A stretch of 64,000 nt of DNA from Thermoanaerobacter ethanolicus JW 200 (GTDB lineage: Bacteria; Bacillota; Thermoanaerobacteria; Thermoanaerobacterales; Thermoanaerobacteraceae): contig NZ_CP033580.1 in NCBI RefSeq assembly GCF_003722315.1, positions 1,177,001 through 1,241,000 of the forward strand. The letters are read 5' to 3'. A program made the translations under genes and the position numbers. The notes beneath the pieces are model-generated. The model made no database searches, was not told the DNA's origin, and was given only the letters and a program-made list of their open reading frames with translations. This document shows, piece after piece, positions 35,466 to 42,984 of the stretch (the first letter of the stretch is position 1; each line of letters starts with the position of its first letter).

Positions 35466-35711
35466 ATGACAAATGAAGATTTTGTGAATTTTATTGTTGA
35501 CAAATTTAATAGTTTTGAAAAAAGGTTTGACAACTTTGAAAAAAGATTGGATGGATTTGAAGAAAGATTTGATGAAGCTATTACAAAAATAAAGATGAAG
35601 TTAGAGAAAACACTAGATTAGAATGATAAAAAGATTACCGAATTAAACCAAAAATCACAGGAAGTAAAGCTGGATAGACAGCTTTTAAAGAGAGCAGTAG
35701 TAAATTTGTAG
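35466..35711 (+). pseudogene. small coiled-coil protein gene with in-frame stop
   Basis: MTNEDFVNFIVDKFNSFEKRFDNFEKR... is a heptad-rich small protein that stops at TAG 35619. The same frame resumes as NDKKITELNQKSQEVKLDRQ and ends at 35709. The short stretch in between reads more naturally in another frame (KDEVRENTRLE), which suggests two compensating frameshifts. An intact relative would be about 80 residues. Function unknown; such proteins are often paired with phage or regulatory genes. Confidence 0.5.
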
Positions 35712-35717
35712 ACATCG

Positions 35718-35745
35718 AGATACACTATAAAGTGTGTCTTTTTTT
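35718..35745 (+). terminator. terminator after the coiled-coil gene
   Basis: AGATACACT and AGTGTGTCT pair (with one G-T) around ATAA and run into seven T residues. Confidence 0.75.
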
Positions 35746-35757
35746 GTAAAGTGTAGC

Positions 35758-35865
35758 AGTAAATCCTGAGCCGAAGTGAAACGAAGCCTTAAGCCGAAGT
35801 GAATGGTCTCCGAAGAATCTTTGTCTTCTGTCATTCTGAGGTGAAGCCGAAGAATCTCATGCATA
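35758..35865. repeat. dispersed intergenic repeat with GAAGAATCT motifs
   Basis: The stretch repeats short units: GCCGAAGTGAA twice (35768, 35791 areas), CCGAAGAATCT twice, and GTCATTCTGAGG. This is the look of a small non-coding repeat scattered through many clostridial genomes. It is non-coding and lies just upstream of the IS110 element. Confidence 0.4.
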
Positions 35866-35962
35866 AAGGAATACAAAAAATGCAAAAAAGTATTAAAAAA
35901 GAAAGGTAGGAGCATTCCTGTAATGAATAAAAAATAAGGAAGAATGAACTTTGAAAAAATAA

Positions 35963-36033
35963 GTACCTCCTGATAAAATACAGAGTGTAAGTTCTAGAAC
36001 TTACCTCGAATTATCAAAATAAACAGGAGGTAC
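35963..36033 (+). promoter_or_regulatory. leader hairpin that covers the IS110 recombinase ribosome site
   Basis: GTACCTCCTG (35963-35972) is a perfect complement of CAGGAGGTAC (36024-36033), which contains the AGGAGGT ribosome site. TGATAA and TTATCA extend the pairing. In the loop is the 18-bp palindrome GTAAGTTCTAGAACTTAC (35987-36004). Transcripts entering from outside would hide the ribosome site. Confidence 0.6.
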
Positions 36034-36038
36034 CTAAA

Positions 36039-37322
36039 ATGAAGTATACACAAAATGAAAAGATTTTGCAAGTAACAGAAGACACATTAATTGCGGGAGT
36101 AGACATAGCAAAAGAAAGCCATTATGCCAGAGCATTTGACTACAGAGGAGTAGAATATGGGAAATACCTAAGATTTGAAAACAATAGAGAAGGTATGACA
36201 AAATTTTTTAGATGGGCAAAAGAGTTGATGGAGAGACATAAGAAAAACAAACTAATAGTAGGGATAGAACCGACAGGGCAATATTGGCTATGTTTTGCCC
36301 AATACCTTAAAGACAATAACATAAAGGTAGTATTGGTTAATCCATTTCATGTAAAGAGGAGCAAAGAATTAGATGACAATTCTCCCACAAAAAGCGATAA
36401 AAAAGACCCAAAAACAATAGCAATGCTAGTAAAAGATGGGAGATATGTAGAGCCGACAATACCTGAAGGAGTATATGCAGAATTAAGGGTAGCGATGGAC
36501 ATAAAAGACAGGTTGAACAAACAAATAGGGATGACAAAAAATCAAATAACAAGATGGATGGACATATACTTTCCGGAGTTTAACACCGTATTTTCAGACT
36601 GGGAAGGGAAAGCAGCACTTATCACATTAAGAGAATTTCCAACGCCTGAGAAGATAGCAAAAAAGAGTGCTGAAGAAATAATATCGATATGGAAGAAAGA
36701 AGTACAAAGAGGGGTAGGAGAAAAAAGGGCTATAAAGCTGATAGAAACTGCTAAGGAGAGCATAGGGAAGAAGCAGGGCATAAAGATGGCGGAATACGAG
36801 ATAAAGACTCTCATTGAACAATACGAATTTCTCAAAAAACAAATTGAAGAAATAGAGAAGAAGATAGAAGAATTAATAGTTGAGATACCAGGGGTTAAAG
36901 AACTACTAGAAATCAAAGGGATAGGAGTAAATACAGTAGCAGGTTTTATTGCAGAAGTAGGAGATATTGAGAAATATGAACATCCAAAACAGATACAAAA
37001 ACTAGGAGGATTAAACCTAGTAGAGAATAGCTCTGGTAAACATAAAGGAGAAACGACAATAAGTAAAAGAGGGAGGAAGCGATTGAGGAGAGTACTATTT
37101 AATGCAGTAATGGCCTTGGTTGCAAAAAACGAAGAGTTTCGTGAACTACACAAATATTACACTACCAGAGCGCAAAACCCGCTAAAAAAGAAGCAATCAC
37201 TAATAGTATTGTGCAACAAACTGATAAGGGTATTTTATGTCATATTAAAAAAAGGAGTAAAATATGACCCAATCAAGATGATGAAGGACATAAAGAGGCC
37301 AGCCTTACAGGAAGCTGCATAA
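36039..37322 (+). CDS. IS110-family recombinase (transposase)
   Basis: A 427-residue DEDD/serine recombinase. The N-terminal RuvC-like acidic residues are probably Asp22 (GVDIAKESHYA), Glu77 (VGIEPTGQYW), Asp120 and Asp123 (SDKKDPKTIAML). A coiled-coil linker runs from about 250 to 282. The C-terminal Tnp20 domain has IPGVKELLEIKGIGVNTVAGFIAEVGDI and a Ser331/Ser332 pair (ENSSGKHKG), one of which would be the nucleophile. It appears intact. IS110 recombinases are guided by element-encoded bridge RNA, so the flanking structure matters. Confidence 0.92.
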   Translation: MKYTQNEKILQVTEDTLIAGVDIAKESHYARAFDYRGVEYGKYLRFENNREGMTKFFRWAKELMERHKKNKLIVGIEPTGQYWLCFAQYLKDNNIKVVLVNPFHVKRSKELDDNSPTKSDKKDPKTIAMLVKDGRYVEPTIPEGVYAELRVAMDIKDRLNKQIGMTKNQITRWMDIYFPEFNTVFSDWEGKAALITLREFPTPEKIAKKSAEEIISIWKKEVQRGVGEKRAIKLIETAKESIGKKQGIKMAEYEIKTLIEQYEFLKKQIEEIEKKIEELIVEIPGVKELLEIKGIGVNTVAGFIAEVGDIEKYEHPKQIQKLGGLNLVENSSGKHKGETTISKRGRKRLRRVLFNAVMALVAKNEEFRELHKYYTTRAQNPLKKKQSLIVLCNKLIRVFYVILKKGVKYDPIKMMKDIKRPALQEAA

Positions 37323-37348
37323 AAAGTGCTAACATACTATCAAATCAA

Positions 37349-37410
37349 TTAAGGGTTAATCATCTTCTCTTCAGCTTTAAATTACTCACATCTAAAAAGC
37401 TGACCCTTAA
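37349..37410 (+). repeat. two-step hairpin just after the IS110 recombinase gene
   Basis: Outer arms TTAAGGGT (37349-37356) and ACCCTTAA (37403-37410), and inner arms TCAGCTTT (37371-37378) and AAAGCTGA (37396-37403 area), form a long hairpin with a 14-base bulge on the 5' side. There is no T run, so it is not a standard terminator. Confidence 0.55.
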
Positions 37411-37506
37411 GAAGAATTAATTTTTAGGGAAAACGAAAGTGTGAACGACGTGACCTAAAAGGTAAAGTAAGGAATAAAACAAAAACAACTAGTCAAGATG
37501 GTATAT

Positions 37507-37677
37507 TGACAACAAGAGCGGGAATTGTCATACAAGAATAATCACCATACGGGCAAAGACCCTGCAATGGAGCAGAAATGACATCCACCTCATGGCAGGT
37601 AGAACGAAGGAATTAAGGACTAAGATCCAGTAAGACATGGGAGGGTAAACCCCATGAGATAAGTGGAGCTATCCCGC
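37507..37677 (+). ncRNA. candidate structured RNA 3' of the IS110 recombinase
   Basis: GCGGGA (37518-37523) can pair with TCCCGC (37672-37677) and close a multibranch fold. Inside are GGG-CAAAGA-CCC (37551-37562), CCTGC with GCAGG (37561-37565, 37595-37599) and CATGGG with CCCATG (37636-37641, 37651-37656). TGACAA and TTGTCA (37507-37530) give an alternative first hairpin. The region has no open frame of note. It could be a bridge/seekRNA or a leader of the genes that follow. Existence as an RNA is inferred. Confidence 0.35.
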
Positions 37678-37843
37678 CATAATATGGAAATAGGATATGA
37701 GGTTTATTAAACTTACCTATTTAATGGTTAGATAAGTAAGAAATGATAATATAAGCCATGAGATGCTCTTGTTGTGATGAGAAAATTAAAGAAAAACTAA
37801 GATATTAAGAGAAAATAAAAGATAATAGAGGGAGGGTGTAGAG

Positions 37844-39538
37844 ATGAAGAAAATACCCTATGGGATGTCCAATTTCAGAGCGATGAGAGAAGAAGGATAC
37901 CTGTATGTAGACAAAACGATGTATATAGAGAAGATAGAGAACTTAAATAGCAAATACCTGTTTTTCATAAGGCCGAGGAGGTTTGGGAAAAGTCTTTTTC
38001 TTTCCACATTGGAGAACTACTATGACATAAACAATGAGAAAGATTTTGAGAAACTGTTTGGTGACTTATATATAGGGAAGAACCCAACAAAGCTAAAGAA
38101 CAGTTATATGGTATTAGAGCTTGACTTTTCGGGATTAGATACAGGCGATAGAGAAAGATTAGAAAAATCCTTTAAACAAAACCTAATTGATTCAATAAGC
38201 AGCTTTTTAAACAAATACCACAGCATATTTAAAGAGATAAACGAAATAAAAGAGCATATCAAAGAGAAGCCGGATATAAAATCAATAATAAACCAGCTAA
38301 TTGAGGAAGTAGAGAAAGTAGGTAAAAAGATATACCTAATAATAGACGAATATGACCATTTTGCCAATGACATAATAGCGATGGGGGACAGTGAATTTTA
38401 TAGAGAGATAGTGAGGGCATCAGGTTTTGTAAGAGACTTTTATGAGACATTGAAGATAGGGACAAAAAGCGTAATAGACAGGATATTCATAACAGGGATA
38501 TCTCCAATAATGTTGGACGACTTAACAAGTGGATTTAACATAGCATTAAATGTCACAATGGATTTAAGCTTAAATGAGATGTTGGGATTTACAGAAGAAG
38601 AAGTGGTGAAGATACTAGAAGAAGTAGGGATAGAGGAAAAAGAGAATTTAATAAATAACTTAAGGGAATTATACGATGGCTATAAATTCAACAAAAATGC
38701 CAAGACAAGGGTATACAATCCAGACATGGTACTATACTTTTTAGCACAATACAAAAACACAGGAGGATATCCAGAGTATTTAATAGACGACAATGTAAAG
38801 ACAGACTATGGCAGACTAAACAGGCTTACAATGAATGAAGAGAACAAGGCATTGCTAGAGAGGATCATAAAAGAGGAAGGGATAGTAGCGGAGATAGTAA
38901 CAAAATTTTCATTTGACAGGATGTACGACGAAGAATACTTTGTATCACTGCTATTCTATATGGGATTACTCACGATAGAGAGGCAAGAAAAAACGAGATT
39001 ATTTTTAAAAATACCCAATTACGTAATCAAGACAATAATGTGGGAATATATAGAAACGAATTTAAAGAAAGAATACAAAATTAATCTTGACCTAAATGAG
39101 TTAAGGAAGACCATAGAAGAGATGGCGTATGAAGGGAGAATAAAACCGTATATAGAGTATATAAGCCAGAACGTGCTAAAGGTGCTTTCGAACAGGGACA
39201 TAATAAACTTTGATGAAAAATATATCAAAGTGATATTAATTACGTATCTTGTAAACAGTAAAGCCTATAGGCCAATAAGTGAGAGGGAGACAGAAGGAGG
39301 GTATATAGACATATACTTGGAGAGGGACATAAGGATACCAGATATAAAATACGAGTGGTTGATAGAGCTAAAATATGTAAAGAAGAGTGAGAAAGACAAG
39401 GTAGACAAGATAAAAGAAGAAGGAATAAAGCAGCTTAAGAGGTATAGAGAAAGTAAAGGGCTAAAAGAGAGAAAAGATGTAAAGCAGGCGCTAATCATAT
39501 TCATAGGCAAGGACGAATACCAAGTAATTGAAGTGTAA
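37844..39538 (+). CDS. AAA-ATPase-like / PD-(D/E)XK nuclease protein, copy 1
   Basis: A 564-residue protein of the AAA-ATPase-like (PF09820) plus DUF1703 type. Residues 43-50 (RPRRFGKS) form a P-loop-like motif and IIDEYDH (166-172) a Walker B-like motif. The C-terminal nuclease-like core has Asp489 (GGYIDIYLE) and Glu508-Leu-Lys510. The family is common in anaerobes, but its role is not established; defence or toxin-like activity has been proposed for relatives. This is the first of three tandem near-copies and differs from the others in residues 90-158. A GGGAGGGTG ribosome site precedes the ATG. Confidence 0.82.
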   Translation: MKKIPYGMSNFRAMREEGYLYVDKTMYIEKIENLNSKYLFFIRPRRFGKSLFLSTLENYYDINNEKDFEKLFGDLYIGKNPTKLKNSYMVLELDFSGLDTGDRERLEKSFKQNLIDSISSFLNKYHSIFKEINEIKEHIKEKPDIKSIINQLIEEVEKVGKKIYLIIDEYDHFANDIIAMGDSEFYREIVRASGFVRDFYETLKIGTKSVIDRIFITGISPIMLDDLTSGFNIALNVTMDLSLNEMLGFTEEEVVKILEEVGIEEKENLINNLRELYDGYKFNKNAKTRVYNPDMVLYFLAQYKNTGGYPEYLIDDNVKTDYGRLNRLTMNEENKALLERIIKEEGIVAEIVTKFSFDRMYDEEYFVSLLFYMGLLTIERQEKTRLFLKIPNYVIKTIMWEYIETNLKKEYKINLDLNELRKTIEEMAYEGRIKPYIEYISQNVLKVLSNRDIINFDEKYIKVILITYLVNSKAYRPISERETEGGYIDIYLERDIRIPDIKYEWLIELKYVKKSEKDKVDKIKEEGIKQLKRYRESKGLKERKDVKQALIIFIGKDEYQVIEV

Positions 39539-39563
39539 AAAAGAAAAGAAAGAGGTGGTAAAG

Positions 39564-41264
39564 ATGAAGAAAATACCCTATGGGATGTCCAATTTCAGAG
39601 CGATGAGAGAAGAAGGATATCTGTATGTAGATAAAACGATGTATATAGAGAAGATAGAGAACTTAAATAGCAAATACCTGTTTTTCATAAGGCCGAGGAG
39701 GTTTGGGAAAAGTCTCTTTCTTTCCACATTAGAGAACTACTATGACATAAACAATGAGAAAGACTTTGAGAAACTATTTGGCGACTTATATATAGGGAAG
39801 AATCCAACAAAGCTAAAGAACAGTTATATGATACTCAAACTGAATTTTTCAGGCCTAAACACAGAAAACAAAGACCAACTAAAAGAGTCCTTTTTGTTAA
39901 GTGTGAAAAATTCAATAAATGCTTTATTAGGCAGATACGAGGGTATATTAGAAAATACGGAAGAAATAAGGAAGAAAATTGACCAAATAACTGATATAAA
40001 TGCGGTTATAATCACGATAATAAATGAAGTAAAAAAAGTAGGTAAAAAGATATACCTAATAATAGACGAATATGACCATTTTGCCAATGACATAATAGCG
40101 ATGGGTGAGAGTGAATTTTACAGAGAGATAGTGAGGGCATCAGGTTTTGTAAGAGACTTTTATGAGACATTGAAGATAGGGACAGAGAGTGTAATAGACA
40201 GGATATTCATAACAGGGATATCCCCGATAATGCTGGATGACTTAACGAGTGGATTTAACATAGCATTAAATGTCACAATGGATTTAAGCTTAAATGAGAT
40301 GCTGGGATTTACAGAAGAAGAAGTGGTGAAGATACTAGAAGAAGTAGGGATAGAGGAAAAAGAAAGAGAAAAATCATCAGAAGAATTAAAAGAATTATAT
40401 GATGGTTATTTATTTAGTGCAGAAGCGGAGAAGAGGATATACAATCCCGACATGGTATTGTATTATCTTGACAGCATAGTAAGATACAAAAAACCGCCTA
40501 GAAATTTAATAGACGACAATGTAAAGACAGACTATGGCAGACTAAACAGGCTTACAATGAATGAAGAGAACAGGGCATTATTAGAGAGAATCATAAAAGA
40601 GGAAGGGATAGTAGCGGAGATAGTAACAAAATTTTCATTTGACAGGATGTACGACGAAGAATACTTTATATCGTTGTTATTCTATATGGGGTTACTAACG
40701 ATAGAGAGGCAAGAAAAAACGAGATTATTTTTAAAAATACCCAATTATGTAATCAAGACAATAATGTGGGAATATATAGAAACGAATTTAAAGAAAGAAT
40801 ACAAAATTAATCTTGACCTAAATGAGTTAAGGAAGACCATAGAAGAGATGGCGTATGAAGGGAGAATAAAACCATATATAGAGTATATAAGCCAGAATGT
40901 GCTAAAGGTGCTTTCGAACAGGGATATAATAAACTTTGATGAAAAATATATCAAAGTGATATTAATTACGTATCTTGTAAACAGTAAAGCCTATAGGCCA
41001 ATAAGTGAGAGGGAGACAGAAGGAGGGTATATAGACATATACTTGGAGAGGGACATAAGGATACCAGATATAAAATACGAGTGGTTGATAGAGCTAAAGT
41101 ATGTAAAGAAGAGTGAGAAAGACAAGGTAGACAAGATAAAAGAAGAAGGAATAAAGCAGCTTAAGAGGTATAGAGAAAGTAAAGGGCTAAAAGAGAGAAA
41201 AGATGTAAAGCAGGCGCTAATCATATTCATAGGCAAGGACGAATACCAAGTAATTGAAGTGTAA
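39564..41264 (+). CDS. AAA-ATPase-like / PD-(D/E)XK nuclease protein, copy 2
   Basis: A 566-residue copy with the same P-loop, DEYDH and ELK motifs. Its first 89 residues are almost identical to copy 1. Residues about 90-158 switch to another version shared with copy 3 (KLNFSGLNTENKDQ...). About 265-313 is unique (EREKSSEELKELYDGYLF). The last 185 residues match copy 1. An in-frame ATG 36 bases upstream lies before the GAGGTGGT ribosome site, so 39564 is the start. Only 25 bases separate it from copy 1, so the array is one operon. Confidence 0.82.
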   Translation: MKKIPYGMSNFRAMREEGYLYVDKTMYIEKIENLNSKYLFFIRPRRFGKSLFLSTLENYYDINNEKDFEKLFGDLYIGKNPTKLKNSYMILKLNFSGLNTENKDQLKESFLLSVKNSINALLGRYEGILENTEEIRKKIDQITDINAVIITIINEVKKVGKKIYLIIDEYDHFANDIIAMGESEFYREIVRASGFVRDFYETLKIGTESVIDRIFITGISPIMLDDLTSGFNIALNVTMDLSLNEMLGFTEEEVVKILEEVGIEEKEREKSSEELKELYDGYLFSAEAEKRIYNPDMVLYYLDSIVRYKKPPRNLIDDNVKTDYGRLNRLTMNEENRALLERIIKEEGIVAEIVTKFSFDRMYDEEYFISLLFYMGLLTIERQEKTRLFLKIPNYVIKTIMWEYIETNLKKEYKINLDLNELRKTIEEMAYEGRIKPYIEYISQNVLKVLSNRDIINFDEKYIKVILITYLVNSKAYRPISERETEGGYIDIYLERDIRIPDIKYEWLIELKYVKKSEKDKVDKIKEEGIKQLKRYRESKGLKERKDVKQALIIFIGKDEYQVIEV

Positions 41265-41289
41265 AAAAGAAAAGAAAGAGGTGGTAAAG

Positions 41290-42984
41290 ATGAAGAAAAT
41301 ACCCTATGGGATGTCCAATTTCAGAGCGATGAGAGAAGAAGGATACCTGTATGTAGACAAAACGATGTATATAGAGAAGATAGAGAACTTAAATAGCAAA
41401 TACCTGTTTTTCATAAGGCCGAGGAGGTTTGGGAAAAGTCTCTTTCTTTCCACATTAGAGAACTACTATGACATAAACAATGAGAAAGACTTTGAGAAAC
41501 TATTTGGCGACTTATATATAGGGAAGAATCCAACAAAGCTAAAGAACAGTTATATGATACTCAAACTGAATTTTTCAGGCCTAAACACAGAAAACAAAGA
41601 CCAACTAAAAGAGTCCTTTTTGTTAAGTGTGAAAAATTCAATAAATGCTTTATTAGGCAGATACGAGGGTATATTAGAAAATACGGAAGAAATAAGGAAG
41701 AAAATTGACCAAATAACTGATATAAATGCGGTTATAATCACGATAATAAATGAAGTAAAAAAAGTAGGTAAAAAGATATACCTAATAATAGACGAATATG
41801 ACCATTTTGCCAATGACATAATAGCGATGGGTGAGAGTGAATTTTACAGAGAGATAGTGAGGGCATCAGGTTTTGTAAGAGACTTTTATGAGACATTGAA
41901 GATAGGGACAGAGAGTGTAATAGACAGGATATTCATAACAGGGATATCCCCGATAATGCTGGATGACTTAACGAGTGGATTTAACATAGCATTAAATGTC
42001 ACAATGGATTTAAGCTTAAATGAGATGCTGGGATTTACAGAAGAAGAAGTGGTGAAGATACTAGAAGAAGTAGGGATAGAGGAAAAAGAGAATTTAATAA
42101 ATAACTTAAGGGAATTATACGATGGCTATAAATTCAACAAAAATGCCAAGACAAGGGTATACAATCCAGACATGGTACTATACTTTTTAGCACAATACAA
42201 AAACACAGGAGGATATCCAGAGTATCTAATAGATGACAATGTAAAGACAGACTATGGTAGGTTAAACAGGCTTACAATGAATGAAGAGAACAAGGCATTG
42301 TTAGAGAGGATCATAAAAGAGGAAAGGATAGTAGCGGAGATAGTAACAAAATTTTCATTTGACAGAATGTACGACGAAGAATACTTTATTTCTCTTCTAT
42401 TTTATATGGGCTTATTAACAATAAAAGATTACAGGTACAATATCTTAGAACTTGGCATACCTAATTACGTAATAAAAACAATGTATTGGGAGTACTTCGG
42501 TAGAAAATTAAAGGAAGAAAACAACATAAAATATGAAATGCTGGAAATAGCAAAAGCCATATGGGAAATGGCATTTGAAGGAAAAATAAAGAACTTTATA
42601 AAATTTATAAGTGAAAAAGTTCTAAAAGTATTATCCAATAGAGATACAATAAAATTTGATGAAAAATATATAAAAATAATACTCTTTTCATACTTGACAA
42701 TGAGTAACATATACAAGCCTATAAGTGAGAAAGAAACAGAGGGAGGTTATATAGATATTTATTTAGAAAAAGACATAAGAATGCCAGATGTAAAATACGA
42801 ATGGTTGATAGAGCTAAAGTATGTAAAGAAAAGTGACGAAAAATATATTGGGGAGATAATAGAAAAAGGGAAAGAACAATTAAAGAGATACCGTGAAAGT
42901 ATGCAATTTAAAGATAAACAAAATTTAAAGAAAGCATTAGTGGTATTTATAGGAAAAGGAGATTACAAAATATTTGAAGAGTAA
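41290..42984 (+). CDS. AAA-ATPase-like / PD-(D/E)XK nuclease protein, copy 3
   Basis: A 564-residue copy. Residues 90-158 match copy 2, residues 267-313 match copy 1, and from about residue 365 onward the gene diverges from both in codons and then in protein sequence (KDYRYNILELGIPNYVIKTMYWEY...). The nuclease core is kept (GGYIDIYLEKDIRMPDVKYEWLIELKY). The 25-base spacer and ribosome site before it are identical to those of copy 2, showing recent tandem duplication. It is the last of the array. Confidence 0.82.
   Translation: MKKIPYGMSNFRAMREEGYLYVDKTMYIEKIENLNSKYLFFIRPRRFGKSLFLSTLENYYDINNEKDFEKLFGDLYIGKNPTKLKNSYMILKLNFSGLNTENKDQLKESFLLSVKNSINALLGRYEGILENTEEIRKKIDQITDINAVIITIINEVKKVGKKIYLIIDEYDHFANDIIAMGESEFYREIVRASGFVRDFYETLKIGTESVIDRIFITGISPIMLDDLTSGFNIALNVTMDLSLNEMLGFTEEEVVKILEEVGIEEKENLINNLRELYDGYKFNKNAKTRVYNPDMVLYFLAQYKNTGGYPEYLIDDNVKTDYGRLNRLTMNEENKALLERIIKEERIVAEIVTKFSFDRMYDEEYFISLLFYMGLLTIKDYRYNILELGIPNYVIKTMYWEYFGRKLKEENNIKYEMLEIAKAIWEMAFEGKIKNFIKFISEKVLKVLSNRDTIKFDEKYIKIILFSYLTMSNIYKPISEKETEGGYIDIYLEKDIRMPDVKYEWLIELKYVKKSDEKYIGEIIEKGKEQLKRYRESMQFKDKQNLKKALVVFIGKGDYKIFEE

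Follow-up and report, generated by a model that had tools for sequence, protein, structure and literature searches.

Results and Discussion

Positions 37514-37681 very probably encode the bispecific guide RNA (bridge RNA or seekRNA) of an IS110-family element that occupies positions 35911-37834 of the window, as judged from sequence comparison. The window is the whole stretch of DNA that was analysed, 64,000 nucleotides (G000:C1:1177001-1241000) of a 2.9-Mb host genome, and all coordinates are window positions. Downstream of the IS110-family transposase gene (36039-37322) come 512 non-coding bases and, from 37844, an array of AAA-ATPase/PD-(D/E)XK genes. The array (37844-42984) consists of three tandem, very similar genes with mosaic differences, and the element lies in front of the first. 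The first-pass annotation had proposed a bridge RNA or seekRNA 3' of the recombinase gene, and this proposal was borne out: the element ends include the region, its stems covary, and its loops match target flanks and donor ends. It had also seen no convincing frame there, in agreement with the lack of any listed open reading frame of at least 80 amino acids in 37323-37843.

Element Ends and Insertion Product

The ends of the element and its flanks are as follows.

35901-35910, +, left target flank, host DNA, ending in AAAGGTAGG; joined through one AG to 37835 in the empty site of relatives
35911-35912, +, AG core dinucleotide, left copy; AG present once in empty sites and twice in the filled site
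35913-35930, +, left end CATTCCTGTAATGAATAA; AGCATTCCTGT is near-universal in the family
37819-37832, +, right end, closing in GATAATAGAGGG; boundary of seven copies
37833-37834, +, AG core, right copy, and end of the element; from copy boundaries and empty sites
37835-37843, +, right target flank GGTGTAGAG, host DNA that forms the leader of the AAA-ATPase/PD-(D/E)XK gene; from the empty site

Seven near-identical copies of the element were recovered from the host genome, each with the non-coding region. The aligned copies had identical ends, with the left boundary at AGCATTCCTG and the right boundary at GAGGGAG. The protein identity of the IS copies of this genome to those of Thermoanaerobacter wiegelii was 91-93%. 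In two of the seven (L006 and L007, G000:C1:1470642-1475478 and 2450324-2455160) the transposase frame contains a late stop and the guide RNA is intact.

For the empty-site search, the flanks of single copies were joined and then sought across the genus. The empty site of the window copy was found in two relatives (L252 and L254) and reads AAAGGTAGG-AG-GGTGTAGAGATG; exact empty sites were obtained for four copies in all, the window copy and three others. Since the empty sites contain a single, target-derived AG and the filled site has an AG at each of its junctions, the element was defined as 35911-37834. In a relative carrying a tandem copy (L128), the right end is joined to the left end via one AG. 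The exact single-AG empty sites show that target duplication is limited to the AG core and that insertion is site- and orientation-specific.

Positions 37323-37834 are inside the mobile element and travel with it. Other copies had been suggested as the means of defining the ends, and both the seven copies and the empty sites place the region within the element. The non-coding region delimited in the first-pass annotation (37323-37843) is real and lies in the element, except for its last nine bases, 37835-37843, which are target DNA on the ATPase gene side, the element ending at 37834.

Transposase Gene and Left End

36039-37322, +, IS110-family transposase/recombinase of 427 amino acids (DEDD_Tnp_IS110 and Transposase_20); Pfam, NCBIfam and match to IS621
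35951-35979, +, putative promoter-like TTGAAA-N17-TAAAAT, 5' of the transposase gene within the left end; sequence match, also in relatives
35963-36033, +, inverted repeat GTACCTCCTG (35963-35972) and CAGGAGGTAC (36024-36033); from the sequence

The transposase scored 96.8 bits with PF01548 and 83.4 bits with PF02371, corresponding to a RuvC-like DEDD domain and a C-terminal Transposase_20 domain, and 238 bits with NF033542 (IS110 family RNA-guided transposase; cut-off 140). Pairwise scores, which come from different programs, were 57.8 bits to IS621 (8wt6) and 51.6 bits to IS4321. In the left end, GTACCTCCTG lies in the spacer of the promoter-like motif and CAGGAGGTAC is the ribosome-binding site of the transposase gene; both motif and repeat are retained in relatives. 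The repeat would mask this ribosome-binding site in read-through transcripts only, not in the element's own, and might plausibly serve as a guard against transcription from outside.

Distribution and Structure of the Predicted Guide RNA

37514-37681, +, bridge/seekRNA core (covariance model R1, positions 1-167); covariance model and alignments
37518-37677, +, closing stem P1, GCGGGA (37518-37523) and TCCCGC (37672-37677); alignment and covariation test
37526-37583, +, stem P2, TGTCA (37526-37530) and TGACA (37579-37583), base of the target loop; alignment and covariation test
37537-37545, +, right target guide, on the 5' side of loop 1; complements the top strand beyond the core; permutation test
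37551-37562, +, apical hairpin GGGCAAAGACCC of the target loop; alignment and covariation test
37566-37574, +, left target guide AATGG, core AG and CA, 3' side of loop 1; permutation test
37584-37667, +, stems P4, TCCAC (37584-37588) and GTGGA (37663-37667), and P5, CTCATGG (37589-37595) and CCATGAG (37652-37658); covariation test
37608-37613, +, right donor guide AGGAAT, on the 5' side of loop 2; complements ATTCCT of the left-end top strand; conserved complementarity
37617-37628, +, apical hairpin P6 of the donor loop, GGA...TCC; compensation between G-C and A-U
37639-37644, +, left donor guide GGG-AG-G, on the 3' side of loop 2 and identical to right end and core; triplet equal to that of the right end in three sequence classes

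In Blast searches, about 120 bases of the non-coding region were located on Bacillaceae plasmids, downstream of IS110 transposase genes, and the conserved core 37514-37681 emerged from alignments of diverse members. With a covariance model of this core, the RNA was detected in 75 of 399 Bacillota genomes. A transposase gene was present on the same strand just 5' of the RNA in 135 of the 149 aligned matches, with transposase identities of 30-100%; for the remaining 14, no same-strand transposase gene was found upstream within the fetched stretch.

Covariation was tested on a 27-pair structure in 24 distinct sequences, with shuffles and slid structures as controls. Of all cells, 93.3% were paired, and compensatory cells, with both sides changed, numbered 47 as compared with 15.8 ± 3.0 after shuffling and at most 9 for slid structures. 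P5 covaries and P4 is invariant. The covariance analysis that had been suggested thus supported the stems. The folding energy of 37500-37690 did not exceed chance expectation (z = −0.54, with 59 of 200 shuffles folding as well), and that of the whole stretch was marginal (z = −1.83); the case for structure is made by covariation and not by energy. The earlier 160-base domain is indeed closed by GCGGGA and TCCCGC, but its interior is made up of two guide loops with their stems rather than simply three stems. No Rfam match at E ≤ 1 was found within 37323-37843. The sole match in a scan of 35500-38600, a turnip yellow mosaic virus pseudoknot (E 0.2) on the other strand and outside the region, was rejected as due to chance.

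Upstream Domain of the Non-Coding Region

37349-37410, +, upstream two-step hairpin of the non-coding region; counterpart hairpins in relatives with a long non-coding region

The first 180 nucleotides or so (37323-37505) form a separate region, common in full only to close relatives, and represent a second structured domain upstream of the guide RNA. The two-step hairpin reported there earlier has both arm pairs in the sequence, TTAAGGGT (37349-37356) with ACCCTTAA (37403-37410) and CAGCTTT (37372-37378) with AAAGCTG (37396-37402); the guide model does not need it. A further proposed helix, TTTTAGG with CCTAAAA (37422-37460), was not upheld, since two near relatives (L089 and L091) have ATAAAA as its 3' arm in their copies. 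In Thermoanaerobacterium-like relatives (L097 and L102) and in L026 the upstream domain folds as GCACCGC...GTCAAGGG...CCCTTGAC...GCGGTGC. Readings of the domain as an already known RNA or as a self-standing repeat were rejected, as it had no Rfam match and was found only in these elements.

Donor Loop

Loop 2, which lies between P5 and P6, has on its 5' side the sequence (A)GGAAT(T/G), complementary to CATTCCT of the left end. Both sequences are nearly invariant, so that this side of the loop offers complementarity and no covariation. On the 3' side is NNN-AG-G, in which NNN repeats the final three bases of the element's right end: the pairs of RNA and right-end triplets were GGG/GGG in 41 genomes, GAG/GAG in 9 and GAT/GAT in 3, with a few exceptions, mostly at uncertain ends. 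Within each loop, the segment that pairs with the top (right) strand precedes the other.

The invariance of the left-end half of loop 2 would also suit a short seekRNA in which loop 1 guides the target only, loop 2 is structural or protein-binding and the donor ends are recognised by protein, and published seekRNAs of 70-100 nt suffice for transposition (PMC11187229). This is nevertheless unlikely, as right-end triplet and loop 2 vary in concert across three classes and AGGAAT complements the left end in nearly all members.

Target Loop

Loop 1 is located between stem P2 and the GGGC...ACCC hairpin, and its 3' side has the same sequence as the left target flank, core and left end of insertions. 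The left guide was compared with the six bases left of the core in 107 insertions from 43 genomes, guides being permuted among genomes 5000 times. On average 4.21 of 6 bases matched the element's own flank, as against 2.43 ± 0.17 (maximum 3.17) for permuted guides, and the match fell to 2.15 when the guide was slid by one base; positions −5 to −1 matched at 70-92%. The right guide matched its own right flank more loosely, at about 4 of 8 bases (3.95; permuted 3.13 ± 0.13, maximum 3.60), at one register. The match of the left guide cannot have travelled along with the element, since the flank is host DNA. The comparison of loops with target flanks and donor ends, as proposed in the first-pass annotation, hence gave matches for both loops.

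Some insertions in the window genome fit the guide poorly, one (L003) having AAAAAG where the guide has AATGG. In a natural form of retargeting, lineages whose guides differ occupy targets that differ accordingly: ACGGGC-AG-TTTAGTTGAA on a Peribacillus plasmid, TAGGAA-AG-TATAAAT (G165), TTTTGT-AG (G158) and ACGAA (G188), and a right flank ...-AG-TTGAACAA agreed with the guide at 8 of 8 bases (G418).

That the conserved structure, which sits in the right end of the element, acts as DNA, in recombination or as a transposase-binding site, is very improbable: its single-stranded loops carry guides matching the host flanks of each insertion, which a protein-DNA site would not need, and the closest known systems employ RNA (PMC11187229, PMC11208160). 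Least tenable is the earlier alternative that the region, being structured and directly 5' of the ATPase gene, is a leader or riboswitch-like RNA controlling the ATPase/nuclease array from 37844, which fails because 37323-37834 belongs to the element, ends at 37834 and precedes unrelated genes in six other copies, the same ATPase gene being without it in the empty-site relatives L252 and L254, so that only a regulatory role gained at this one locus would remain.

Proposed Mechanism and Shine-Dalgarno Targeting

As a bispecific guide, the RNA would presumably be transcribed, processed and bound by the 427-residue recombinase. The 5' side of loop 1 would pair with the target top strand to the right of the AG core and its 3' side with the bottom strand to the left, and loop 2 would pair in the same strand order with the joined ends (right end-AG-left end). 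The recombinase would then exchange strands at the AG core, the product of this putative chemistry being the one observed, and the element would insert with duplication of that AG only.

Most guides spell the Shine-Dalgarno motif (A/T)RGG-AG-G(T/A); that of the window element is AATGG-AG-GTGATTATT, and its right end carries GAGGGAGG. With such a guide, insertions tend to fall at ribosome-binding sites. An open reading frame started 3-15 nt after the core in 44 of 80 distinct insertions with Shine-Dalgarno guides, as against 14.3% at shifted control positions, usually with ATG at 7-10. The right end (GAGGGAG) is predicted to rebuild a ribosome-binding site for the downstream gene, so that insertions at these sites would hand that gene a new one, which would probably be of benefit to it. 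Site choice follows sequence and not gene position; in one copy (L004) an open reading frame that is intact in relatives is interrupted at AAAGGAGGTAATAGG.

One copy, L097 (G020:C1:315400-318700), is inserted in a CRISPR array, with Rfam-recognised direct repeats on both sides, at a spacer sequence resembling a gene start (AGGGAGGTAATAGTATG). Two Caldicellulosiruptor-like copies (L118 and L228) have the right flanks GGATGTAAAC; at L118 the unit GAACTATG-AG-GGATGTAAAC, which forms the site, occurs repeatedly and resembles a CRISPR repeat, with GGATGTA matched by the right guide. Five copies of one genome (L260-L264, G026) have different right flanks and a common left flank of about 1.88 kb, which is a second IS110-family element in inverse orientation. 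Their left guide (ATACG) matches the end of this neighbour, and one element may here be targeting the edge of another.

Relation to Known Systems

By protein domains and insertion product the element is a member of the IS110 superfamily, and covariation and guides characterise its predicted RNA as a bridge/seekRNA. Like IS621 (Durrant et al. 2024, PMC11208160; 8wt6-8wt9), it combines a DEDD/Transposase_20 recombinase with one RNA bearing a target loop and then a donor loop, and has a dinucleotide core within the pairings with one core copy per junction in the product. Unlike IS621, its RNA is 3' and not 5' of the gene, its core is AG instead of CT, the recombinase has 427 rather than 328 residues, and the order of left guide first and right guide second is reversed in both loops. 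The features of the IS110 group (IS621/ISEc21 type), an RNA upstream and a bottom-strand-first order, were thus not found.

In IS1111 elements such as ISEc11, ISPa11 and ISKpn4 (Siddiquee et al. 2024, PMC11187229), the non-coding region is likewise downstream of the transposase gene and the target part of the seekRNA has the top-strand complement before the bottom-strand complement, the order being reversed in ISEc21; that of the IS621 bridge RNA is also the reverse (PMC11208160). These two features of IS1111 are shared by the element. The same study gives, for IS1111, subterminal inverted repeats of 11-13 bp and a transposase of about 330-350 amino acids, as against 427 here. No exact repeat of at least 6 bp was found between the ends, nor of at least 8 between the whole left end and right end, in a scan that detected the 11-bp repeat of IS4321. 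Since it is without subterminal inverted repeats, the element is not of the IS1111 type by the defining feature, and membership was rejected. The first-pass annotation had named the IS1111 branch for an RNA position 3' of the gene, and this position was confirmed.

A subset of IS110-type elements with a downstream non-coding region is mentioned in PMC11187229 (Figure 1b); these are likewise without long subterminal repeats and carry that region 3' of the gene, and the element, compared by these features, may belong with them. For IS900 of Mycobacterium avium subsp. paratuberculosis, another IS110-family element, targeting of translation initiation signals has been reported (Doran et al. 1997, cited in PMC8141618). 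IS900 was interpreted as expressing hed, a gene of its own, from the complementary strand, whereas here a same-strand host gene would regain a ribosome-binding site. In the literature searched at the level of main texts, no paper was found that treats this element or, for IS110-type elements whose non-coding region is 3', the order of the seekRNA.

Somewhat short of even confidence is placed in the broader proposal of a third IS110-superfamily design, in which a long recombinase without subterminal repeats is combined with a 3' bridge RNA having both loops in the reverse of the IS621 strand order, and which would have spread across the Bacillota by a Shine-Dalgarno target guide that regenerates a ribosome-binding site with each insertion, some lineages being re-aimed at unrelated sites.

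Programmable DNA recombination of the kind represented by the element was discovered recently, and the design seen here is unlike that of the two described subgroups. The element adds a guide-RNA architecture that is widespread among the sampled Bacillota genomes (75 of 399), thermophiles included, and that allows target and donor guides to be recognised from the sequence. As a laboratory tool, a thermophilic bridge recombinase could be of use. An IS1111-like order is here joined to ends that are not IS1111-like, which puts to the test how RNA position, strand order and end structure go together in the IS110 superfamily. The Shine-Dalgarno guide would offer a simple idea of how such an element may multiply at many sites with limited damage.
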